Source of the DNA: an uncultured Parvularculaceae bacterium
Lineage (GTDB): Bacteria; Pseudomonadota; Alphaproteobacteria; Caulobacterales; Parvularculaceae
NCBI GenBank assembly: GCA_947259375.1
Contig: CAMYLZ010000009.1
Location: 1-64,000 of the forward strand
DNA: 64,000 nt
Reading direction: 5' to 3'
Under the pieces are notes generated by a model. It was given only the letters and a program-made list of their open reading frames with translations, was not told the origin of the DNA and did no database searches. The position numbers and the translations under genes are program-made. Shown here piece by piece: positions 2,152 through 52,313 of the stretch (position 1 is the stretch's first letter; the number at the start of each line of letters is the position of its first letter).

Positions 2152-2232
2152 CGACGTTTCTCAACCCTTTTTCAAACCCGCGCCGCGACAATGGGGCTCG
2201 GTTTTGTTCGGGTACCGGGGAACATCATATTT

Positions 2233-4092
2233 ATGCTGCATCATGAAGTCACAAACGCCAATGCACGCGAATTGATTGTCGTTTGCGACGATGGCGGTTT
2301 TATCCGCTTTGTCTCGCAGAGTTTTTCAGCATTTTTCGGCGCGCCGGCGCAAGATTGGAACGGGCGCGCCTTCGCCCCTGGCGGCGAGGAAGCCGCCCCC
2401 GGCGCCCCAGCGCGATATCGCACCGCCGCGCGCAACAGCGCCGGGGACGTGGTGCTGGAATGGACCGAAACCGTTTTGAGCGGCGGCGAGCGGCTTTACG
2501 TGGCGACGCCGGTCGATCTCGCGGCGCCGGCCAATGACAGCGATCCCGCCGAGCCCGCGCCGATGCGCGAGTTGAACGCAACCGCGCGCGATCCGAAATT
2601 GCAGCTATTGGCGACCATGAGCCATGAAATGCGCACGCCGCTGAATGGCATTCTCGGCATGACCGCGCTGCTTCTCGACACCGCGCTCGAACCCAATCAG
2701 CGCGCTTATGCGGAATCCGTGCGCGAGTCCGGCGTTTCCCTCCTTGCACTGATCAATGACCTGCTCGATTATTCAAAAATCGAAGCCGGCCGGCTCGAGA
2801 TCAAGCATGATTATTTCAGCGCCGTCGGCGTCGTGCAGGGCGTCGCGGAATTGCTCTCGCCGCGCTCGGTTGACAGAAATATCGAAATTACCGCCGTCAT
2901 CGACAACAACATTCCGCCAGAACTTCTCGGCGATGAAGCGCGGTTGCGCCAGGTGCTGATCAATCTTGCCGGCAATGGCGTCAAGTTCACCGATCAGGGC
3001 GGCGTCAGCATCGAGGCCAATCTCGTTTCCGCGACGGATGGCGTCGCGCGCGTGCGCTTTTGCGTGCGCGATACCGGCATCGGCGTGCCTGAAAACAAGC
3101 AGGCGCGCATTTTCGAAGAATTTGCGCAAGCCGGCTCCGACGCCGCGCGCGAACGCGAAGGCACCGGGCTCGGCCTCGCCATCGCCCGCAAGATCGTCCG
3201 CGCCATGGGCGGCGACATTACCCTTGTCAGCGCCCCCGGCGAGGGCAGCGCTTTTGGCTTCACCCTCGATTTCGCCTATGAAGAGGCCGCCGCCGCCCCG
3301 CCCGAGCCGATCGCCGCGCCGGTCGTCGTCGTTACCCGCTCGCCGGTGCTCGCCGAGGGCCTCGAAAAACAGCTTGTGGCGATCGGCGCCGACTGCGTCA
3401 TTCATGCACGCAGCGCCAACGCCGCGATTGAGGCGGTCAAAGGCCATGACAACGCCATTCTGCTCAGCGACACTGACTTCGCGGCGGAATGCGGCGCGGC
3501 AATGACGGAAAAATCGGCACGCGCCTATGTCTTGTTGTCGCCGCGCGACCGTCGCCGCCTGCCCGGATTGCGCGAGGCCGGTTTCGACGGTTATTTTATC
3601 AAGCCGACGCGCCAAAGCTCCTTATACAAACGATTTTTCGAAACTGAGCCGGAAAGCCCGCTGGAGCCGAGCAAACCGGTCAAGGCGCCGCGCGCGCGCG
3701 CCTATTCAGTGCTGCTGGCGGAAGACAACCAGATCAATGCGGTGCTGGCGACGACCATCATCAAGCGCGCCGGCCACCGCGTCGACGTCGCCCAGAACGG
3801 CGCCGAAGCGGTCGATGCGGTCGTCGCGCGGCCCTATGACCTGGTGCTGATGGACCTGCACATGCCCGATGTCGACGGCCTCGAAGCCGCGCGACGCATT
3901 CGCAATCTCGACAGCGACGCAAGGCGCATCCCGATCATCGCGCTGACCGCCAGCGCCATGGCCGCTGACCGGCAAAAATGCATCGCCGCCGGCATGGACG
4001 ACTTCCTGTCAAAACCGTTCGAGCCCGACGATCTCACCGGGCTGTTGTCCAAGTGGGGCGATGCGCAAAGCGCTTTCAGCGAAGCCTCGTGA
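2233..4092 (+). CDS. Cytoplasmic hybrid sensor histidine kinase (PAS-HisKA-HATPase-REC-REC)
   Basis: A 619-aa hybrid kinase with no membrane segment. An N-terminal PAS-like sensor (about 10-100) is followed by HisKA with phospho-acceptor His131 in SHEMRTPLNGI, and a HATPase domain with N and G boxes (DTGIGVP, GTGLGLAI). A degenerate receiver comes next, lacking the N-terminal acidic pair (VVVVTRSP) but keeping an IKP lysine. The C-terminal receiver is intact (LLAEDNQ, LMDLHMP, ALTA, LSKPF). GGGGAA lies about ten bases before the ATG at 2233; an in-frame ATG at 2191 has no ribosome site. The ligand and partner are unknown. A CtrA-type box lies upstream. Confidence 0.92.
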   Translation: MLHHEVTNANARELIVVCDDGGFIRFVSQSFSAFFGAPAQDWNGRAFAPGGEEAAPGAPARYRTAARNSAGDVVLEWTETVLSGGERLYVATPVDLAAPANDSDPAEPAPMRELNATARDPKLQLLATMSHEMRTPLNGILGMTALLLDTALEPNQRAYAESVRESGVSLLALINDLLDYSKIEAGRLEIKHDYFSAVGVVQGVAELLSPRSVDRNIEITAVIDNNIPPELLGDEARLRQVLINLAGNGVKFTDQGGVSIEANLVSATDGVARVRFCVRDTGIGVPENKQARIFEEFAQAGSDAAREREGTGLGLAIARKIVRAMGGDITLVSAPGEGSAFGFTLDFAYEEAAAAPPEPIAAPVVVVTRSPVLAEGLEKQLVAIGADCVIHARSANAAIEAVKGHDNAILLSDTDFAAECGAAMTEKSARAYVLLSPRDRRRLPGLREAGFDGYFIKPTRQSSLYKRFFETEPESPLEPSKPVKAPRARAYSVLLAEDNQINAVLATTIIKRAGHRVDVAQNGAEAVDAVVARPYDLVLMDLHMPDVDGLEAARRIRNLDSDARRIPIIALTASAMAADRQKCIAAGMDDFLSKPFEPDDLTGLLSKWGDAQSAFSEAS

Positions 4093-8522: not shown

Positions 8523-9134
8523 TTAAAAATCGAGCGCGCCTTCTTGGCGCAATAAATCCAGCAGCGGAAAAAGCGACAGGCCGAGAATGGCGAAATGGTC
8601 GCCTTCGACTTTCGAGAACAGCCGCCCGCCGAGCTTTTCAATCTGATAAGCGCCGACGCTGGTGAGGATTTCAGGACCGGCGGCGGCAAGATAAGCGTCG
8701 ATCTCGGCCGCGCGCATCGCCCGCAGCTCTAGGCGCGGGCGATCGAGATTACGCCAGATGATGCGCCCGCCGCGCGCCATCGCCACCGCATTGATCAGGG
8801 TATGCGCCGCGCCTTGCATATCGAGCAAACGAGCGCGCGCCTCGGCCATCGTTTCCGGTTTGTCATAGGGCCGGCCGGCAAATTCCATGATTTGATCGGA
8901 GCCGATAATGAGCGCGCCCGGATCGCCGGCCAAGGGTTCGGCGACGGCCATGCATTTGGCGTCGGCGAGCCGCATCGCGGTGTCGTTGAGGGACAACCCT
9001 TCGCGCGCCGCAGCGCGTTTGATCGCGGCTTCATCCACATGAGGGCGGCGGATCTCGAAATCGACACCGGCGCCGCGCAAAATGGCGGCGCGGATTTCAC
9101 TCCCCGAGGCGAGGATAATTTTCTTTTTAATCAT
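8523..9134 (-). CDS. maf: Maf-like nucleotide pyrophosphatase
   Basis: A 203-aa Maf/HAM1-fold protein. It starts KIILASGSEIRAAILRGAG, has the HVDEAAIK segment, the catalytic region IIGSDQIME, and ends with SVGAYQIE and VEGDHFAILGL. Family members hydrolyse dTTP/UTP or modified nucleotides. The ATG at 9134 overlaps the stop of ppdR in an ATGA arrangement, which fixes the start. A longer in-frame extension upstream lies inside ppdR and is not real. Confidence 0.94.
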   Translation of the reverse strand: MIKKKIILASGSEIRAAILRGAGVDFEIRRPHVDEAAIKRAAAREGLSLNDTAMRLADAKCMAVAEPLAGDPGALIIGSDQIMEFAGRPYDKPETMAEARARLLDMQGAAHTLINAVAMARGGRIIWRNLDRPRLELRAMRAAEIDAYLAAAGPEILTSVGAYQIEKLGGRLFSKVEGDHFAILGLSLFPLLDLLRQEGALDF

Positions 9135-10009
9135 TGGTTCTTGCGGGCTGAAAGTTTGGTCAGGATGGAAGCGGCGGTCTCTTCCACTGATTTTCGCGTC
9201 ACGTCGATGGTCGGCCAGCGATGTTTTGCAAACAGGCGTTTCGCGGCGAGGATTTCCTGGCGGATTAGCGCGAGGTCGGAATATTCCTCCGCCGCCTTTT
9301 CCGCATTCATATCGCCAAGCCGGCTTTTGCGGATTTGCGAAAGACGTTCCGGGGCTGCAACGAGGCCGATCACCATTGGCTTTCGCAAGGACATTAATTC
9401 GGGCGGCGGCGGCGAGGTCGGCACAAGCGGGACATTGGCGGCTTTCACGCCGCGATTCGCCAGATACATACAGGTCGGGGTCTTGGAGGTGCGGCTGACA
9501 CCGACCAGGACCACATCCGCCGCTTCGAGATCCCACAACATCTGTCCGTCATCATGGGAAAGCGTGAAATCGAGCGCGGCGATGCGGCGAAAATAAGCGT
9601 CGTCGAGCTGGTGCTGCGCGCCGGGGCGCAAAGTTTGTTCAAGTCCGAGAAATTCGGCGAACGCATCGCGCAAGGGATCGAGCACGGATATGGCCGGGGT
9701 TTGCAATTCGCTGCAACGGATTTCCAACAGGCGGCGAAGCTCCGGATTGAGGATCGTGTAAAGTACAAGACCGGGCGAGGCTTCGATCTCGGCAAGCGTC
9801 TTTTCCATTTGCGGCCGCGAGCGCACCAGCGCGTAAATATGCTCAAGCGGCTTCGCCGCGGCGAATTGCGAGGCCGTGGCTTTAAGCATCGCGTTCAAGG
9901 TTTCACCGGTCGAGTCAGAAACGAGGTGAACATGAAAAAACGTCGCCAGCGGCCGGGTTTTTCGCGGCGCGGCGGGATCTTCCTCGGTTTGCGGCTCTGC
10001 TCTTGTCAT
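9131..10009 (-). CDS. ppdR: Pyruvate, phosphate/water dikinase regulatory protein (DUF299)
   Basis: A 292-aa bifunctional kinase/pyrophosphorylase of the PPDK/PEP-synthase regulator family. It shows HLVSDSTGETLN at the N-terminus and the P-loop-like VGVSRTSKTPTCMYLA. Members switch dikinases by ADP-dependent phosphorylation and Pi-dependent dephosphorylation of a threonine. It is the first gene of the leftward operon and is divergent from hemE across the proposed origin, the same arrangement as in Caulobacter. No dikinase gene is in this window. Confidence 0.94.
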   Translation of the reverse strand: MTRAEPQTEEDPAAPRKTRPLATFFHVHLVSDSTGETLNAMLKATASQFAAAKPLEHIYALVRSRPQMEKTLAEIEASPGLVLYTILNPELRRLLEIRCSELQTPAISVLDPLRDAFAEFLGLEQTLRPGAQHQLDDAYFRRIAALDFTLSHDDGQMLWDLEAADVVLVGVSRTSKTPTCMYLANRGVKAANVPLVPTSPPPPELMSLRKPMVIGLVAAPERLSQIRKSRLGDMNAEKAAEEYSDLALIRQEILAAKRLFAKHRWPTIDVTRKSVEETAASILTKLSARKNQ

Positions 10010-10079
10010 GCTTGTGGAATTATAGGGGAAAGATCGACGTTTTTGCGAGGGTGAAAAACCCCCCGTTCAAAACTCCTCG

Positions 10080-10126
10080 AGTCATACCAGCGCGGCGCCC
10101 AGCCCGATTTGAAAAGTCATACCAGC
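10080..10126 (+). repeat. 12-bp direct repeat in the origin region
   Basis: AGTCATACCAGC occurs at 10080-10091 and again at 10115-10126, 35 bp apart, and is followed by a partial copy (ccatacctgc). The first copy overlaps a GANTC site. Its role is unknown; a protein-binding iteron is possible. Confidence 0.6.
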
Positions 10127-10345
10127 CATACCTGCATGACCGGTCTTCCAAAGGCGTTGGGAAATTTTTCCTTTCCGCAGATTCTTCCCCAAACTGTTCA
10201 ATAGCGCTCTGCGGCGTTTCATCCGGTTTTCACCATGGGTTTGAAAATCTATTCCCTGCGGGGAAAGTTGTGGGATGACGGGGCGCCTTTTGGGGAGGCT
10301 TGCTCACTTTCGGGTTTTCCCCGATATCCCGCCTGACTCTTAATT

Positions 10346-10381
10346 TTAATACTTTCTTAAGAATCCTTTATAGAAAGTTAA
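10346..10381 (+). promoter_or_regulatory. Array of CtrA half-sites overlapping the hemE promoter region
   Basis: TTAA at 10346-10349 and TTAA at 10357-10360 form a perfect TTAA-N7-TTAA CtrA box. A third element (TTTA/TTAT, 10367-10371) and TTAA at 10378-10381 continue the series at 10-11 bp steps, one helical turn each. Another TTAA starts at 10340. GACTC (10335) and GAATC (10361) are GANTC methylation sites within the array. In Caulobacter CtrA binding at such sites blocks origin firing and affects hemE transcription. Confidence 0.8.
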
Positions 10382-10401
10382 GAAGGAAAGTTCTGGAAGC
10401 G

Positions 10402-11436
10402 ATGACAGCACAATCAAAGTTCCTTCGGGTGTTCGAAGGCGAGGTGTTCGATGCGCCTCCGGTCTGGTTCATGCGGCAGGCCGGCCGGTACCTTCCGGAA
10501 TATCGCGCGCTGCGGGCCAAGGCCGGCTCTTTTCTCGATTTGTGTTTCAACCCGGAGTTGGCGAGCGAAGTGACGCTGCAGCCGATCCGCCGTTTCGATC
10601 TCGATGCGGCGATCCTGTTTGCGGATATTTTGCTGATCCCCCATGCGCTCGGCGGTAATTTGCGGTTCGTTGAAGGCGAAGGCCCGCGGCTTGATCCGGT
10701 GAAAGACCTACAAACAGTTGAACAGTTTCGGGACCGGGACATTCTGTCTGCGCTGGCGCCGGTGTTTGAAACGGTCGCTAAAACCCGGGCCGGTCTCGCG
10801 GCGGACAAAGCGCTGATCGGTTTTGCCGGCGCGCCCTGGACGGTAGCGACCTATATGCTGGCGGGCGGTCCGATGAAGGATCCGGCGGCGTTGCGAAAAC
10901 TTTTTTATCAGGACCGCGCCCTGATCGATGCGTTGATCGATGTCCTCACCGACCACACGATCGGCTACCTCGAAGCGCAGATCGCCGCCGGCGCGGATGC
11001 GGTGCAACTATTCGACAGTTGGGCGGGCGGCCTGCCTTGGCCGGTGCTTGATGCGGTGTCGGTGCGCCCGCTTGATCGCATCGCCCGGGCGATCAAGAAA
11101 AATCACCCCGATTTGTCGGTGATCCTGTTTCCGAAAGGGGTCGGTGAAAAATCTGTGGAATATGCGCTGTTGCAGGGTTGCGACGGGCTCGGCATTGATT
11201 ACGCCATGGACCCGGCATGGGCGCGGGCGAATTTGAGCGATCGGGTTGTCGTCCAGGGCGGGCTCGATCCGTTGCTGACGGTCTCGGGAGGGGCGGAAAT
11301 GGAAAACAACGCGCGCGCTTTGTTGAAACTGTTCCATGATGTCCCATACGTCTTTAATCTCGGGCATGGTTTCACCCCCGAAACGCCGCCGGAGAACGTC
11401 GCGCGGCTGGTTGAAATCGTCCGGGGGCGCGGCTGA
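10402..11436 (+). CDS. hemE: Uroporphyrinogen decarboxylase
   Basis: A 344-aa enzyme that decarboxylates uroporphyrinogen III to coproporphyrinogen III in heme synthesis. Family signature WFMRQAGRYLPEYR is near residue 22, with FADILLIP and GHGFTPETPPENV later. Start 10402 follows AAGGAAAG and TGGAAG; an in-frame ATG at 10300 would run through the CtrA boxes and is rejected. hemJ begins at the last base of its stop codon, so the two genes are probably translationally coupled. Confidence 0.97.
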   Translation: MTAQSKFLRVFEGEVFDAPPVWFMRQAGRYLPEYRALRAKAGSFLDLCFNPELASEVTLQPIRRFDLDAAILFADILLIPHALGGNLRFVEGEGPRLDPVKDLQTVEQFRDRDILSALAPVFETVAKTRAGLAADKALIGFAGAPWTVATYMLAGGPMKDPAALRKLFYQDRALIDALIDVLTDHTIGYLEAQIAAGADAVQLFDSWAGGLPWPVLDAVSVRPLDRIARAIKKNHPDLSVILFPKGVGEKSVEYALLQGCDGLGIDYAMDPAWARANLSDRVVVQGGLDPLLTVSGGAEMENNARALLKLFHDVPYVFNLGHGFTPETPPENVARLVEIVRGRG

Positions 11437-11882
11437 TGTCGGCGTTCCTGGCGAGCATCTATCTTTGGATCAAGGCCGCGCATCTCATCATGGTGATCGG
11501 CTGGATGGCGGGGATGATGTATTTGCCGCGCCTGTTTGTTTACCAGCACCAGTCGGAAAAAGGCGGCGAGGCGGAGCGCATGTTCATCGCCATGCAACGC
11601 CGGCTTTTGAAAGGCATCATCAATCCGGCGATGATTGCGGTTTGGGTGCTTGGCGTTTTGATGCTGATCGCCAATCCGGCGATCCTTTCGGCGCCCTGGT
11701 TTCACATCAAGCTGGCTTTCGTGGTGGCGATTTCCGCAGTGCATGGATTTTACGCCTCCTCGCGGCGCAAATTCGAGGCGGGCGAGCGCCCGCGCAGCGA
11801 AAAATTCTGGCGCATCATGAACGAGGTTCCGTTCCTCGCGCTGATCGTCATCGTGGTGATGGTGATCGTCAAACCGTTCTAA
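11436..11882 (+). CDS. hemJ: HemJ-type protoporphyrinogen IX oxidase (membrane)
   Basis: A 148-aa four-helix membrane protein of the UPF0093/HemJ family. It carries the conserved histidine in WIKAAHLIMVIGW, RLLKGIINPAM, and a WFHIKL segment holding the conserved histidine-lysine region. HemJ oxidises protoporphyrinogen IX to protoporphyrin IX in bacteria lacking HemG/HemY, so it serves the same pathway as hemE. Its start overlaps the hemE stop (TGATG). Confidence 0.93.
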   Translation: MSAFLASIYLWIKAAHLIMVIGWMAGMMYLPRLFVYQHQSEKGGEAERMFIAMQRRLLKGIINPAMIAVWVLGVLMLIANPAILSAPWFHIKLAFVVAISAVHGFYASSRRKFEAGERPRSEKFWRIMNEVPFLALIVIVVMVIVKPF

Positions 11883-11922
11883 TGGGGTGATTGCAGCGCG
11901 AACCAGGCGCCCCCGCCCCATA

Positions 11923-11950
11923 TTGACGTTGAAAGCTTGCGCGCTATATC
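11923..11950 (+). promoter_or_regulatory. Predicted sigma-70-type promoter for rho
   Basis: TTGACG (11923-11928) and TATATC (11945-11950) are 16 bp apart, about 120 bp upstream of the rho start. The long leader would fit the autoregulation of rho known in other bacteria, but no attenuator is evident. Confidence 0.5.
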
Positions 11951-12072
11951 TAGGGCGACTTTCCTTTCGCGGCGCCGAAATTTACCGCGCGCTCCCGCAT
12001 TTTCACCGTTGACCAGTTTTCCCCGCCGCTTCGCCGAGCGGGGTTCCGCCGTATCACCATCGTGAGGATCCG

Positions 12073-13344
12073 ATGCTGCCCAAAACCATGGCTCTTGAAG
12101 AGCTGAAACAAAAAACCCCAGCCGAATTGCTTGCTTTCGCCGAAGAGCTTGAGGTCGAAAACGCCTCGACCATGCGCAAGCAGGACATGCTGTTCGCAAT
12201 TCTCAAAGAGCTTGCGGATCATGAGGTGGAAATCCATGGCGGCGGCGTTCTGGAAGTGCTGCCCGACGGTTTCGGGTTTTTGCGCTCGCCTGATGCGAAT
12301 TATCTCGCCGGGCCGGACGATATTTACGTGTCGCCGAACCAGATCCGGCGCTTTGCGCTGCGCACCGGCGATACGGTGCTCGGCGAGATCCGCAGCCCGA
12401 AAGACGGCGAGCGCTATTTTGCGCTGCTTAAAGTCCACACCATCAATTTCGAGGATCCGGACAAAGCCCGCCACAAAGTGCATTTCGACAATCTGACGCC
12501 TCTTTACCCCGATGAGCGGCTGAAGATGGAAATTGAAGACGAAAAAACCAAGGACATGACCGCGCGGGTGATCGATCTGGTCGCGCCGCTCGGCAAAGGC
12601 CAGCGCGCGCTGATTACCGCGCCGCCGCGCACCGGTAAAACGGTGATCCTCCAGAATATCGCGCATTCGGTCGCCGCCAATCACCCGGAAGCCTATCTGA
12701 TTGTCCTGCTGATCGACGAGCGGCCGGAAGAAGTGACCGACATGCAGCGTTCGGTGAAGGGCGAGGTCGTCTCATCGACCTTTGACGAACCGGCGACGCG
12801 CCATGTGGCGGTTGCAGAGATGGTGATCGAAAAGGCCAAGCGCCTGGTCGAACATGGCCGCGATGTGGTGATCCTGCTCGATTCCATCACTCGCCTTGGC
12901 CGCGCTTACAACACGGTGGTGCCGTCTTCGGGCAAGGTGCTGACCGGCGGCGTCGACGCCAACGCCCTGCAACGGCCGAAACGGTTTTTCGGCGCTGCGC
13001 GCAATATCGAGGAAGGCGGCTCGCTGACCATTATCGCCACCGCGCTTATCGAGACCGGATCGAAAATGGACGAAGTGATCTTTGAAGAATTCAAAGGCAC
13101 CGGCAATGCCGAGATCATTCTCGATCGCAAGGTCGCCGATAAGCGCGTTTATCCGGCGATCGACATCGCCAAATCCGGCACGCGCAAGGAAGACCTCATC
13201 ACCGACAAGGGCAATATGCAGAAAGTCTTTGTCCTGCGGCGCATTCTCTCGCCCATGGGCGTCAATGACGCGATCGAATTCCTCATCGACAAGCTGAAGC
13301 AGACCAAGACCAATCGCGACTTCTTCGAGTCGATGAATACTTAA
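12073..13344 (+). CDS. rho: Transcription termination factor Rho
   Basis: A 423-aa hexameric RNA helicase/ATPase. It has the N-terminal Rho helix bundle, then the cold-shock-like RNA-binding domain ([21 protein letters not shown]), Walker A APPRTGKT, Walker [12 protein letters not shown] and the R-loop region ([11 protein letters not shown]). Length is normal. GAGGAT precedes the ATG. Its position after hemE-hemJ and before mnmE is conserved near alphaproteobacterial origins, although here several accessory genes lie between rho and mnmE. Confidence 0.97.
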
Positions 13345-19384: not shown

Positions 19385-20731
19385 ATGACCGACACCATCT
19401 ATGCGCGCGCGTCAGGCGCCGGCAAGGCCGGCGTTGCAGTCTATCGTCTGTCCGGGCCGCGCGCGTTGGAGATTGCTGAGCAGTTAATTGGTAAACGGAG
19501 CAAACCGCGCGAGGCCGCGTTGGCGGCGTTGCGCGATCCGGCGCCCGGTGATGGCGGGGACGGATTGATCGATCGCGGGCTGGCCATCGTTTTCGAAAAG
19601 CCGGCGAGCTTTACCGGCGAGGATGTAGCGGAGTTTCACCTGCATGGCTCGCGGGCGGTCGAAGCGTCCCTTTATGAGACGCTTTCGCGGCTTGGCGCGC
19701 GGCCGGCGGAGGCCGGCGAATTCACCTTGCGCGCCTTTCGCAACGGCAAGCTCGATCTCGCCCAGGTGGAGGCGCTCGCCGATCTTATCGAAGCCGAAAC
19801 GACCCTACAGAAAAAGCAGGCTTTGGGGCAGCTTGACGGGCGCTTGTCGGCGCTCGCCGAAGACTGGCGAAAGCAGATTCTGGCGGTCCTTGCGCCCCTC
19901 GAAGCGGATATTGATTTTCCCGATGAGGGCGATGTGCCGGCGGCGGTGGCCGCCCGCGCCGGTCCGGCGATCCAGGCGCTGATCGCGTCCTTGACGACGT
20001 TTCTCAAACAGGCAGGACGTGCACGGACGATTCGTGAAGGCGTCTCCATCGCGGTGATCGGTCCGCCCAATGCGGGCAAGTCATCCCTCGTCAATGCGCT
20101 GGCCGGATCGGATGTCGCCATCGTTTCCGATATTGCCGGGACGACCCGCGATATTGTCGAGACGCGTCTCGATCTTGGCGGGATCGTCGCGAGCGTCGCG
20201 GACACCGCCGGCATTCACGGCGCCAGCGACGACCGGATCGAGCTTGAAGGGATGCGCCGCGCCCGCGTCCGCGCCGAGGCGGCCGATCTCAGGGTCGGCG
20301 TGCTGGACCCGGCAAGCGTTTATGTCTCGCGGGAAACGCTGGAACTCCTGCAAGCGGGGGACTTTCTTGTCTGGTCGAAAGCGGATCTTGAACCGGCCAT
20401 ACCGGCGGCGGCGATCCCCGCCGGGGTGCATGTGGCGGAGATTTCCGTGAAATCGCGTCATGGGCTCGATGAATTTGTCGCCGCCTTGCGGGACGCGGTG
20501 GCCGGCGGGGCCGATGCCGGCGGGCCGGCGCTGACCCGCGAACGTCATGCGGCCGCCGTCGCCGAAGCGATAGAGGCCCTCGCCCGCGCGGAAGCGCTGA
20601 TTGCAACCGGGCCGGAGCTCGCGGCGGAAGACGCCCGCCTTGCCGCCCGGGCGCTGGGCGGTATTACCGGCGCTGTCGGCGTCGAAGAAGTGCTGGGCGA
20701 GATTTTCTCGAGTTTTTGTATCGGGAAATAG
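19385..20731 (+). CDS. mnmE: tRNA modification GTPase MnmE
   Basis: A 448-aa protein. An N-terminal tetrahydrofolate-binding domain (IYARASGAGKAGVAVYRLSG) and helical domain (GEFTLRAFRNGKLDLAQVEALADLI) surround a GTPase domain with G1 GPPNAGKS and G3 DTAG. The C-terminal CIGK carries the essential cysteine. With MnmG it installs cmnm5 on wobble uridine of tRNAs. G4 is unusual: WSKADL in place of the common NKxDL. Confidence 0.96.
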   Translation: MTDTIYARASGAGKAGVAVYRLSGPRALEIAEQLIGKRSKPREAALAALRDPAPGDGGDGLIDRGLAIVFEKPASFTGEDVAEFHLHGSRAVEASLYETLSRLGARPAEAGEFTLRAFRNGKLDLAQVEALADLIEAETTLQKKQALGQLDGRLSALAEDWRKQILAVLAPLEADIDFPDEGDVPAAVAARAGPAIQALIASLTTFLKQAGRARTIREGVSIAVIGPPNAGKSSLVNALAGSDVAIVSDIAGTTRDIVETRLDLGGIVASVADTAGIHGASDDRIELEGMRRARVRAEAADLRVGVLDPASVYVSRETLELLQAGDFLVWSKADLEPAIPAAAIPAGVHVAEISVKSRHGLDEFVAALRDAVAGGADAGGPALTRERHAAAVAEAIEALARAEALIATGPELAAEDARLAARALGGITGAVGVEEVLGEIFSSFCIGK

Positions 20732-21052: not shown

Positions 21053-21367
21053 GTTCCGCCCCTTCATTCTGTTTCGCGTCCTATTGTTTCGAATCGCGGG
21101 TTCGCGGGAGTTTTAGGGGATGGCGTGCATCAAGCGTGCCTGTTAACCGCGTCTCAAGGAATAGTTTCCAAATTGTAAAGTCGAAGCGCCGGTTACTGTA
21201 ATAATTCGTGACATTAAAACTTATCCGCGCCGATTACGGCGGGGTTATCGTGAGCGGCCGGTCAGCGTCGCGTTTCACGTGAAACATATTGCGGCGCGAA
21301 AAAGCATGCTGAGAAACGGGGTGCATTATGGGCGACGCGGGCCTATATCCCCTCGCCAGAGGATCTG
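21053..21367. other. Intergenic region upstream of mnmG with a parS site
   Basis: This 315-bp gap holds the parS site at 21271-21286 and a weak promoter-like pair, TTGTAA (21173-21178) and TGTAAT (21197-21202) with 18 bp spacing. A TTATCCGCG at 21221-21229 matches 7 of 9 bases of the DnaA consensus. No gene is seen. Confidence 0.5.
21271..21286 (+). promoter_or_regulatory. parS: parS site 1 (15/16 match)
   Basis: cGTTTCACGTGAAACA matches the 16-bp ParB-binding consensus TGTTTCACGTGAAACA except for the first base. It lies upstream of mnmG. Confidence 0.85.
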
Positions 21368-23302
21368 ATGAGCGAATATGACGTCATAATTATAGGCGGC
21401 GGGCATGCGGGCTGCGAAGCGGCGGCGGCTGCTGCGCGCGCTGGCGCACGCACGCTGCTCGCGACGCATCGCAAGGACACGATCGGCGAAATGTCTTGCA
21501 ATCCGGCGATTGGCGGGCTCGGTAAAGGCCATCTGGTGCGCGAGGTTGATGCGTTGGACGGGCTGATGGGCCGGGTGATCGACAAGGCCGGCATTCAGTT
21601 TCGGATGCTGAACCTCTCGAAAGGCCCGGCGGTGCGTGGTCCCCGCGCTCAAGCGGACCGCAAGCTCTATCGCCGCGAGATGCAGGCCTTGCTGGCGGAT
21701 TATCCGGGGCTCGACATTATCGAGAGCGCGGTGGAAGACCTCATGGTGGACGCGGATGTTTCACGTGGAACATCGCACGCGCCCGCGGTGAAGGGGGTTA
21801 TCCTCGCGGACGGGACGCAAATCCCGGCGCGCGCCGTCGTCCTGACCACCGGCACCTTCCTGAAAGGCGTCATCCATATTGGCGAGCGGCGCATTCCCGC
21901 CGGCCGCGCGCGCGGCCGCGATGCTGATGCCGGCGCCAACGCGGCGGACTGGGACGATGTGGAAGCGCCCGCGGTCGGGCTTTCGGCCCGGCTCTATGGG
22001 CTGGGGCTCAAAATGGGCCGGCTCAAAACCGGCACCCCTGCCCGTCTCGACGGCCGGACGATCGATTGGGACCGGCTTGAAAGCCAGCCGGCCGATGACG
22101 CGCCGGTTCCGTTCTCCTTCATGAGCGAGCGGATCGAGGTTCCCCAGATTTCCTGCGGAATCACCTACACCAATAAGGACACCCACCGGATCATCGAGGA
22201 GAATATCGGCAAATCGGCGGTCTATGGCGGCGGTATTTCCGGCCGCGGCCCGCGCTATTGCCCGTCCATCGAGGACAAGGTGGTGCGGTTCGCCGAGCGC
22301 GAGGCCCATCAGGTGTTTCTTGAGCCGGAAGGGCTCGATGAACACACCGTTTATCCGAACGGGATTTCGACCTCCCTGCCGGAGGATGTTCAAGCGGCGT
22401 TTCTGAAGACCATTCCGGGGCTCGAGCGGGCGGCGGTCATCCGCTACGGCTACGCCATCGAATATGACTATGTGGACCCACGCTCGTTGACGGCGGCGCT
22501 GGAGACCAAGGCGCTCGCCGGCCTGTTCCTCGCCGGTCAGATCAACGGCACCACCGGCTATGAAGAAGCGGCGGCGCAAGGGCTGATGGCCGGGGTCAAT
22601 GCGGCGCGCGCAGCGTCTGGTGAGGCGGCGTTCATCCTTGACCGGGCGCAAGCCTATATCGGCGTGATGATCGATGATCTTGTAACGCACGGGGTTACAG
22701 AACCCTATCGGATGTTTACGAGCCGTGCGGAGTACCGCCTCACCTTGCGGGCGGATAATGCCGACCAGCGGCTGACGCCGGTTGGCATCGCGGCGGGCGT
22801 CGTCGGGCCGGCGCGGGCGGAAATGTTTCACGTGAAACAATCGGCGCTGGACGCGGCGCGGGCATGGGCGCGGGAGACCGCGCTGACGCCGAATGAAGCG
22901 GCGAAGCTCGGGCTGCAAATCAATCAGGACGGCCGCCGCCGCTCGGTGGTCGATTTGCTGGCGCTGCCCAGTGTCGCGCTCGCCGACCTTGCGCGCATCT
23001 GGCCGGAACTGGGTGCGCTCTCCCCTGCGGTCGCCGAGCAACTTGAGTTTGACGCGCTTTATGCCGGTTATCTGCACCGGCAGGAAGCGGATATCCTCGC
23101 TTTCAAGAAGGATGAGTCGCTCGCCCTGCCCGCCTCGCTGGATTTCGCCGCCATTAAGGGACTGTCCAACGAGGTGCGCCAGAAACTGGCCGACGCGCGC
23201 CCGGCGACGCTCGGTCAGGCCGGCCGCATCGAAGGCGTCACCCCGGCCGCGCTGGCCCTATTGCTCGCCTGGGTCAAGAAACACGGACGCGCGGCGTCGT
23301 GA
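21368..23302 (+). CDS. mnmG: tRNA uridine 5-carboxymethylaminomethyl modification enzyme MnmG
   Basis: A 644-aa FAD-dependent partner of MnmE. The dinucleotide fold [20 protein letters not shown] is at the N-terminus. Signature [39 protein letters not shown] and the later [17 protein letters not shown] are present. AGAGGA precedes the ATG. Two parS sites lie inside the gene, so part of the peptide sequence (DVSRGT and MFHVKQ) is dictated by them. Confidence 0.97.
21757..21772 (+). promoter_or_regulatory. parS: parS site 2, inside mnmG (15/16 match)
   Basis: TGTTTCACGTGgAACA differs from the consensus by one base in the second half. It is within the mnmG coding sequence, encoding DVSRGT. Confidence 0.75.
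22824..22839 (+). promoter_or_regulatory. parS: parS site 3, inside mnmG (perfect)
   Basis: A perfect 16-base TGTTTCACGTGAAACA palindrome within mnmG, translated as MFHVKQ. Confidence 0.93.
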
Positions 23303-23372: not shown

Positions 23373-23999
23373 ATGTTGATGACCCCCGAAGAATTCGCCG
23401 CTGAGACGGGTGTTTCACGTGAAACATTTGAGCGCTTCAAAGCGATGGACCGTGTACTGACAGAATGGTCGGCGCGGCATAATCTGATCGCCCGCTCGAC
23501 CATGGAAAGCCGCTGGTCGCGCCATTATCTCGACTCCGCGCAACTCGTCCCGCTCATTCCGCCGGCGGCGAAATCCATCGTCGATCTGGGGTCGGGCGCG
23601 GGCTTTCCCGGCCTCGTCATCGCCGCCATGCGCCCGGATGCGAAAGTGACGCTGATCGAATCGACGGGGAAAAAAGCCGCTTTCCTTCAGGCCGTCGGGG
23701 CGGCTATGGAACTCGCTAATCTGAAAGTCATACCGGCGCGAATCGAATCGGTGAAACTGCCAGCCCCGCCTGACGTCATCACCGCCAGGGCGTTGGCGCG
23801 GCTCGATAAGCTGCTCGCCTATGGCGCTGGAATACAAGGCAAAAACACAAAGTATTACTTCCTCAAAGGACAAGATGTAGAGGCTGAATTGACCGAGGCT
23901 ACTAAATCTTGGCATATGGATGTTATCCGCCATCAGAGCCGCACGAGCCCTGACGCGACCATTTTAGAGATCGGAAACCTCGCCCGTGTCCGCAAATAG
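23373..23999 (+). CDS. rsmG: 16S rRNA (guanine527-N7) methyltransferase RsmG
   Basis: A 208-aa SAM-dependent methyltransferase. It shows MDRVLTEWSARHNLIARST, RHYLDSAQL and SAM motif VDLGSGAGFPGLVIA. The start is either 23373 or 23379 (ATG-TTG-ATG), neither with a strong ribosome site. Its last codons overlap the parA start by 14 bp. The last third uses less GC-biased codons (KNTKYYFLKG region) than the rest, a mild oddity. A perfect parS lies in the first 20 codons. Confidence 0.94.
   Translation: MLMTPEEFAAETGVSRETFERFKAMDRVLTEWSARHNLIARSTMESRWSRHYLDSAQLVPLIPPAAKSIVDLGSGAGFPGLVIAAMRPDAKVTLIESTGKKAAFLQAVGAAMELANLKVIPARIESVKLPAPPDVITARALARLDKLLAYGAGIQGKNTKYYFLKGQDVEAELTEATKSWHMDVIRHQSRTSPDATILEIGNLARVRK
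23411..23426 (+). promoter_or_regulatory. parS: parS site 4, at the 5' end of rsmG (perfect)
   Basis: A perfect 16-base TGTTTCACGTGAAACA palindrome within the first codons of rsmG (GVSRETF), about 560 bp upstream of parA. Confidence 0.93.
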
Positions 24000-52112: not shown

Positions 52113-52313
52113 GACAAAATCCCCGCTCCAAACTCCCTCAGACAGTCTAGATTAACCCGTCCTTAACGATCGTGAAAGCCCGCAAATCGCCGGAATGATG
52201 CGCGATTGGGCGGATTGGCGGCGGGAAGCGCCGTCCGCGGCCGCAATTCCCGCAAAATCTTGCCGTCTTGCGCCGTTGGAAGGTCGTTTCGGGCGCCAAA
52301 CCAGCTTTGGCGG

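Follow-up and report, generated by a model that had tools for sequence, protein, structure and literature searches.

The origin Cori of Caulobacter crescentus, at which GANTC sites are present, and the Caulobacter hemE promoter Ps are the closest described counterparts of the locus treated here. In the sections of the literature available to us, Cori is described as an AT-rich region of about 400 bp between hemE and COG1806 that contains CtrA boxes and weak W-box-type DnaA sites (PMC1914354, PMC4468827, PMC4285127). Weakening all five CtrA sites of Cori only mildly perturbed replication in the study concerned, as far as the sections available describe it (PMC4468827), and this mild effect leaves the role of CtrA at the origin an open question. 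At Ps, according to the part of the report available, CtrA acts on a TTAA-N7-TTAA box at the -35 and a TTAA-N7-CTAA box over the -10, its binding is cooperative, and repression is strongest when both boxes are intact (PMC11264516). CtrA sites have also been predicted in several Rickettsiales origins, again going by a partial text (PMC1914354).

Here, we describe a 64-kb stretch of DNA (64,000 nucleotides, hereafter the window) from an uncultured bacterium of the Parvularculaceae. Literature searches combining Parvularcula with CtrA gave nothing on the origin in this window by title, and the same holds for Parvularcula with origin terms among the matches listed; in the available part of a paper on Caulobacterales (PMC12700997) nothing was found on origins. 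The gap between ppsR and hemE resembles Cori, as far as the latter is described in the available texts, in its placement between hemE and COG1806, its length of roughly 400 bp, its AT-rich patch, its CtrA boxes and its putative W-box-type sites. The features of the neighborhood are as follows.

9131 to 10009, minus strand: ppsR/ppdR (COG1806, DUF299), left border (NCBIfam NF003742, 324.5 bits, cut-off 225)
10010 to 10401: putative chromosome origin, 392 bp from ppsR to hemE, 48.5% GC against 61% in the window
10402 to 11436, plus strand: hemE, uroporphyrinogen decarboxylase, right border (NCBIfam TIGR01464, 376 bits, cut-off 303)
11436 to 11882, plus strand: hemJ (TIGR00701, above cut-off)
12073 to 13344, plus strand: rho (TIGR00767, above cut-off)
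19385 to 20731, plus strand: mnmE (trmE) (Pfam TrmE_N and MnmE_helical)
21271 to 21286: parS-like site, 1 mismatch
21368 to 23302, plus strand: mnmG (gidA) (Pfam GIDA)
21757 to 21772: parS-like site, 1 mismatch
22824 to 22839: parS site, exact TGTTTCACGTGAAACA
23411 to 23426: parS site, exact TGTTTCACGTGAAACA

The gene order is thus maf-like, ppsR, gap, hemE, hemJ, rho, mnmE, gidA, the Maf-like protein scoring below the curated cut-offs. The 392 bp between the divergent ppsR and hemE fall within the 200-1000 bp that we use to recognize an origin of the hemE-COG1806 type. The strongly AT-rich patch, said in the original prediction to be the only one nearby, is indeed unique: positions 10322-10405 form the sole cluster of 60-bp windows with at most 31% GC in the 64 kb scanned, and the lowest windows of all, with 15 G+C in 60, fall in it. 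No known RNA family matched at its gathering score in 9000-12000. A small ORF at 10003-10278, of which G003 (see below) has a counterpart, was rejected because single-base gaps separate the alignment blocks. About 6 kb to the left of the origin, at 2191-4092, the window encodes a hybrid histidine kinase with a receiver domain.

Relatives assembled as single contigs allow the gap to be placed. From G003, a single-contig genome of the same genus, we sampled 20 stretches of 20 kb: ten of them, from 2 kb to 1.23 Mb, have a negative GC skew, the stretch with hemE (at 1.257 Mb) has a skew of about zero, the following seven (1.27-2.63 Mb) are positive and the last two are negative. In G086, a single contig from another genus of the family, the skew passes from -0.088 to +0.050 between adjoining 12-kb stretches at hemE (3.156 Mb). 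The two-arc pattern of this genome is broken in 3 of 20 stretches, each by a small value (-0.006 at 0.9 Mb, +0.003 at 2.4 Mb and -0.011 at 3.3 Mb), and one stretch at 1.8 Mb has the fitting sign and an odd composition (30% GC). Hence, the GC-skew check set by the original prediction is borne out in these two relatives, while the contig itself, which begins at window base 1 and has a skew of +0.004 in the left 10.2 kb and +0.015 in the right 54 kb, is uninformative for origin placement when taken alone. The four parS sites (at most one mismatch) at 21.3-23.4 kb lie 11-13 kb from the gap, and parS likewise lies no more than about 20 kb from hemE in G003 and G086, where few stretches were searched. 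Because of the skew sign change at hemE in relatives, the nearby parS sites and the gene order, the chromosome origin very probably lies in the ppsR-hemE gap; with the conservation described below, this central claim of the original prediction is well supported.

At its hemE edge, the gap carries a compact array of predicted CtrA boxes and GANTC (CcrM) sites.

10335 to 10339: GANTC (CcrM) site, kept in some relatives but not in all
10346 to 10360, plus strand: CtrA box 1, perfect TTAA-N7-TTAA, TTAATACTTTCTTAA
10361 to 10365: GANTC (CcrM) site, linker of the two CtrA boxes
10367 to 10381, plus strand: CtrA box 2, imperfect TTTA-N7-TTAA, TTTATAGAAAGTTAA, overlapping the predicted -10 of the hemE promoter

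The perfect box and the half-sites said to continue at 10-11 bp steps to 10381 are present (starts 10346, 10357, 10367 and 10378, steps of 11, 10 and 11 bp with TTTA counted), and so are the four predicted GANTC sites (10079, 10180, 10335 and 10361). With 78 GANTC per 64 kb, 0.48 would be expected in 392 bp (Poisson P for four or more, 0.0015). The two boxes start 21 bp, that is two helical turns, apart and leave six bases between them. TTAA-N7-TTAA occurs twice in the window, at 10346-10360 and at 52152. In a 16-letter score for paired TTAA-N7-TTAA boxes at a 21-bp offset, the gap reaches 15/16, and none of 1000 dinucleotide shuffles exceeded 13. The pattern TTWA-N7-TTAA-N6-TTWA-N7-TTAA was found once in the 3.2-Mb genome, at the gap, and its reversed form nowhere. 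A promoter scan of the gap found no sigma-70 match at 9/12; the spacing of the boxes would fit a -35 and a -10 of hemE.

The array is strongly conserved within the genus. We aligned 26 genus origins (L082-L098, L151-L154 and L156-L160), leaving out L155, whose stretch has no hemE, and L099, in which no ppsR matched beside hemE; L002 and L003 duplicate L084 and L086. The commonest base accounts on average for 87% of the rows in the array (10346-10381), for 59% in 10034-10310 and for 44% in 10386-10401. Nineteen of the 26 have the strict pair, six have at least one changed half-site letter, and unknown bases interrupt the array of L151. In L088, L090 and L153 box 1 reads TTCA and box 2 is a perfect TTAA-N7-TTAA; since these three form one clade, the exchange is to be counted as a single event. 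In L152 the TTCA is not accompanied by an improved box 2, and L160 shows decay of both boxes. The linker is GANTC in 24 of 26 origins (GTTTC in L086 and L087), and its free base is A, T or G, which requires several changes on the ppsR tree (in which L151 is mislabelled 'no'). Variation falls mostly on this free base, which suggests that a CcrM site is selected for between the CtrA boxes. Where the array is complete (25 origins), 17-21 bp lie between its end and the aligned hemE start.

At the level of whole genomes, a strict match occurs somewhere in 23 of 28 genus genomes, compared with 0 of 28 for the backward control. Twenty of these 23 are hemE-type arrays by place or sequence (G034 by sequence only), that of G014 adjoins a hemE copy, and G002 and G036 have theirs elsewhere, with variant arrays at their own origins. 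The genomes without a strict match (G001, G015, G031, G037 and G039) correspond to variant or cut rows. A second hemE match is found in two genus genomes (G013:C2 and G014:C162), and in G014 a paired CtrA site, TTAA-N7-TTAA-N6-TTAA-N7-TTAA, lies just upstream of one hemE copy.

Outside the genus, the picture is more varied. We take family f1 as Parvularculaceae: its member L209 is Parvularcula maris, L086 from the genus of the window is 'Marinicaulis sp. OFTM310' (600-bp core match), and Marinicaulis, now Hyphococcus, is placed like Parvularcula maris in the Parvularculaceae (NCBI taxonomy). Of 21 genomes from the family's other genera, 20 yielded a hemE. The genera g12 and g14 have a similar pair at hemE in four of five origins (L193 with 13/16; L194, L195 and L197 with 15/16). 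Fifteen origins of g10, g11, g13 and g15 are without a hemE-proximal pair, L203 having a single perfect box near hemE, so that the pair is dispensable for origin function. Across the order, 40 of 398 genomes match the paired pattern with a strict TTAA as first half-site (backward control 5), namely 13 of the genus, none of the 21 family members from other genera and 27 from other families; three of these 27 loci lie in a ppsR-hemE gap (L180, L181 and L187). Altogether, pairs with a 21-bp offset were seen inside this gap in L067, L103, L104, L180, L181 and L187 of other families, at -259 (L067), -394 (L103), -233 (L180), -131 (L181) and -266 (L187) from the gap end, of which L180, L181 and L187 had been picked by the paired pattern itself. 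Among 12 origins picked by hemE alone, three from two lineages have an offset-21 pair at no less than 15/16 (L067, an Oceanicaulis, being counted with the order), and seven other offsets are found in one or two origins each. Thus, paired CtrA boxes at 21-bp spacing recur at origins at differing positions. These origins of other Caulobacterales families likewise have a 21-bp-offset CtrA pair in the gap, but position and spacer sequence differ from those of the window array. The differing positions fit the view, taken from a paper available in part, that the use of CtrA at origins arose more than once (PMC4468827). In L108 (G024, f4:g6), the gap has another multi-box arrangement, three perfect TTAA-N7-TTAA boxes that overlap or lie close together (-197, -186 and -168 from the gap end). 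In L165-L179 (order group f3:g16), a tandem CtrA site, TTAACAAGTGGTTAA..TTTAC..CGTTAACCATAAATA, recurs away from hemE, with no hemE or ppsR within the 3-kb loci.

The genome of the window encodes the matching regulators: CtrA (equivalog, 425 bits, cut-off 350), GcrA and a CcrM-type methylase (a RAMA-domain ORF of 382 aa). CtrA boxes in the origin are hence accompanied by CtrA, GcrA and CcrM-type genes, as looked for in a CtrA-controlled origin, and together with the genus-wide conservation these genes lend good support to the CtrA array. We consider it likely that the gap is the origin and that the composite TTAA-N7-TTAA-GANTCC-TTTA-N7-TTAA at its hemE edge serves as a CtrA switch on both the hemE promoter and melting. 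By its position, the AT-rich patch at this edge should contain the hemE promoter as well. The array may be bound by two CtrA~P dimers, cooperatively and on one face of the helix; bound CtrA~P would keep the hemE promoter closed and impede melting by DnaA in cells barred from replicating, and once CtrA is lost, transcription could go ahead and DnaA could load. After a fork has passed, the linker GANTC would be hemimethylated, and the methylation state of this CcrM site could tune CtrA control. From this we infer silencing of replication by CtrA at the gap. The main target of the array could nevertheless be hemE transcription. With a transcription start some 20 bp ahead of the hemE start, box 1 would fall at -35 and box 2 at -10, the array stays next to hemE as the remainder of the gap drifts, and in G014 a similar pair accompanies a hemE copy, all of which would be expected of a CtrA-regulated hemE promoter that merely sits at the origin edge and controls haem synthesis, not replication. 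We regard this narrower role as rather unlikely to be the whole story, since the 21-bp pairs of other families lie farther from hemE inside the gap, where a plain promoter would not need them. Promoter and replication roles are mutually compatible and coincide in Caulobacter Ps.

A second conserved component lies toward ppsR and consists of copies of the word GTCATACC.

10081 to 10101, plus strand: GTCATACC-N5-GGCGCCCA element
10116 to 10123, plus strand: second exact GTCATACC copy, part of a 12-bp repeat
10125 to 10132, plus strand: third copy with one mismatch, GCCATACC

The 12-bp direct repeat noted originally, AGTCATACCAGC at 10080 and 10115, is present and contains GTCATACC; some exact 12-bp direct repeat arises in 15 of 1000 shuffles of 392 bp. 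GNCATACC occurs 24 times in the 26 genus origins (0.6 in shuffles; 18 origins) and 16 times in 20 origins of other family genera (0.6; 12 origins), compared with twice in 15 other origins of the order (0.5; one origin) and five times in 29 other alphaproteobacterial origins (0.7; three origins). Judged by these counts, the GTCATACC word is enriched 27-40 fold in Parvularculaceae origins and is rare, if not strictly absent, elsewhere (4 of 44). CATACC is at chance level outside the family (order, 2 against 2.0; alphaproteobacterial, 5 against 4.3). When one mismatch is allowed, GTCATACC is absent from only one of 46 family origins (L209), with about 0.3 copies per origin expected by chance. The GTCATACC-N5-GGCGCCCA element (at most one mismatch) is found in 26 of 28 genus genomes and at the origin in 24 of 28 (backward control 1); G007 and G012 have none, and G014 and G034 have it elsewhere only. 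Four of its 12 non-origin matches were read (L146-L149) and have similar flanks, those of L146-L148 lying within an ORF that encodes GVWAPHWYDAV. A role as a genome-wide motif was rejected: outside the gap, four exact GTCATACC copies occur in the window and ten in 400 kb sampled from G003. All four of the former and eight of the ten latter lie within a mechanical ORF of 120 aa or more, which is weak evidence of coding. A literature search for GTCATACC and its variants gave no origin paper by title among the matches listed. The main copy of the genus stands about 70 bp upstream of the ppsR start, so the words might instead belong to a ppsR promoter or operator and have no origin function. This appears doubtful, because the sister-genus copies are found on both strands and scattered from -398 to -9 from the gap end, and because GNCATACC is rare in the very same gap of other families (1 of 15 and 3 of 29 origins).

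Sites for DnaA are less evident, and two conserved stretches come into question.

10013 to 10031, minus strand: conserved block TGTGGAATTATAGGGGAAA, putative degenerate DnaA-like sites
10315 to 10322, plus strand: conserved TTTTCCCC, putative degenerate DnaA-box-like site (TTATCCCC in L089 and L091-L093)

Both are read as degenerate sites of the W-box type. In 17 genus rows judged by eye, 10013-10019 holds TGTGGA (TCCACA) in six, TGGGGA (TCCCCA) in eight and neither in three. The two TCCCCA cores of the original prediction do exist, at 10186 (plus) and 10291 (minus), with three others in the window on both strands; their places are not conserved in relatives, and they were dropped as key sites for this reason. 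Over the genus origins as a whole, TCCCCA is enriched 2.4-fold (21 against 8.8 in shuffles). Compared with Cori, the gap lacks any 9-mer within two mismatches of TGATCCACA (G-box) or TTATCCACA. Against TTATNCACA, it has two matches at two mismatches and none better, hence no recognizable 9-mer DnaA box. Matches to TTATNCACA with at most one mismatch number 21 in the genus (7.2 in shuffles; 11 of 26 origins), 78 in 29 other alphaproteobacterial origins (7.0; 25 of 29) and 33 in 15 origins of other families of the order (4.9; 12 of 15), these 15 including L180, L181 and L187, picked by their CtrA pair, and the 29 including L005, which is the L209 of the family. Within the family, g10 has 12 (1.4; 8 of 8 origins) and g12 with g14 six (1.1; 3 of 5). 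A family-wide scarcity of standard boxes is ruled out by g10, and scarcity is accordingly claimed for the genus only. For TTTCCCC, enrichment over shuffles is seen in the genus (32 against 6.5) and in the rest of the family (29 against 2.8), and mildly elsewhere (5 against 1.8 and 12 against 3.4). At 10226-10275, an inverted motif, TTTTCAACA/TTGAAA, with TGTGG-like bases behind it is weakly conserved among the genus origins and could be an IHF or a DnaA site.

The DnaA protein itself is divergent. The sole full DnaA found in the genome (L144:1426-2907, G000:C17) adjoins a DnaN-like ORF recognized by eye and scores 279.9 bits, below the equivalog cut-off of 343.9. Compared with E. coli domain IV (1j1v), it keeps DHTT and has glutamine in place of the loop arginine, presumably R399. 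Like L161 in G003, it reads VMSSFRRAQ after DHTT. L233, a DnaA from another family of the order, has the usual SKRRARV...FGGRDHTTV; this single comparison does not place the branch of the change. A one-residue deletion before RDHTT was discarded as a peculiarity of this DnaA, as chain 3pvp_A, which we take to be M. tuberculosis DnaA, is equally long there. A 140-aa protein consisting mainly of a DnaA-type domain IV is encoded at L145:1330-1752 (G000:C10), its best NCBIfam match (PRK06030, hypothetical) being below cut-off, and G003 also has a second match. That the gap between the divergent hemE and ppsR is an ordinary bidirectional promoter region and the origin lies elsewhere, for example at dnaA, as dnaA-dnaN is the origin site in many bacteria, retains hardly any probability: the parS cluster is near hemE, the skew of G086 flips at hemE, and an origin at dnaA is ruled out by that of G003, which flips at hemE and not at dnaA, 489 kb away.

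As a DnaA box, GTCATACC is not favoured, because DnaA keeps DHTT. We tentatively propose, as a possibility at modest odds, that GTCATACC is a lineage-specific origin word for some origin-binding protein or a changed DnaA, and that the genus fuses it to GGCGCCCA and favours degenerate TTWTCCCC-type sites over standard DnaA boxes, alongside a divergent DnaA, with CtrA/CcrM control in one 36-bp element. The family-wide occurrence of the word would point to an origin-binding activity without known protein, and a divergent DnaA along with scarce standard boxes in the genus would represent a possible co-change of initiator and origin. The genus (28 genomes) and two sister genera enlarge the small group of origins in which CtrA sites are evident, and they offer a natural series of origins with the array present, decayed or absent for testing the role of CtrA. 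Through its GANTC linker, this short element would couple methylation with the binding of CtrA.

Set against the described systems, the locus thus combines familiar parts in its own arrangement. Where five CtrA sites span Cori in the available accounts, the gap has one pair at the hemE edge only, and in contrast to Cori it has GTCATACC words and the GGCGCCCA element. The closest parallel is Ps, which in the text available likewise has a perfect TTAA-N7-TTAA and a second, imperfect box. Differences from Ps are that box 2 reads TTTA-N7-TTAA, that the linker holds a CcrM site in 24 of 26 origins and that about 20 bp separate the end of the pair from the hemE start. The array is indeed denser than a single box, as had been proposed, but its density is not new, as Caulobacter hemE Ps is described with the same two-box plan in the part of the report available (PMC11264516). 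Hence, by analogy, the array is best seen as a variant of the paired plan of Caulobacter Ps and not as a new kind.
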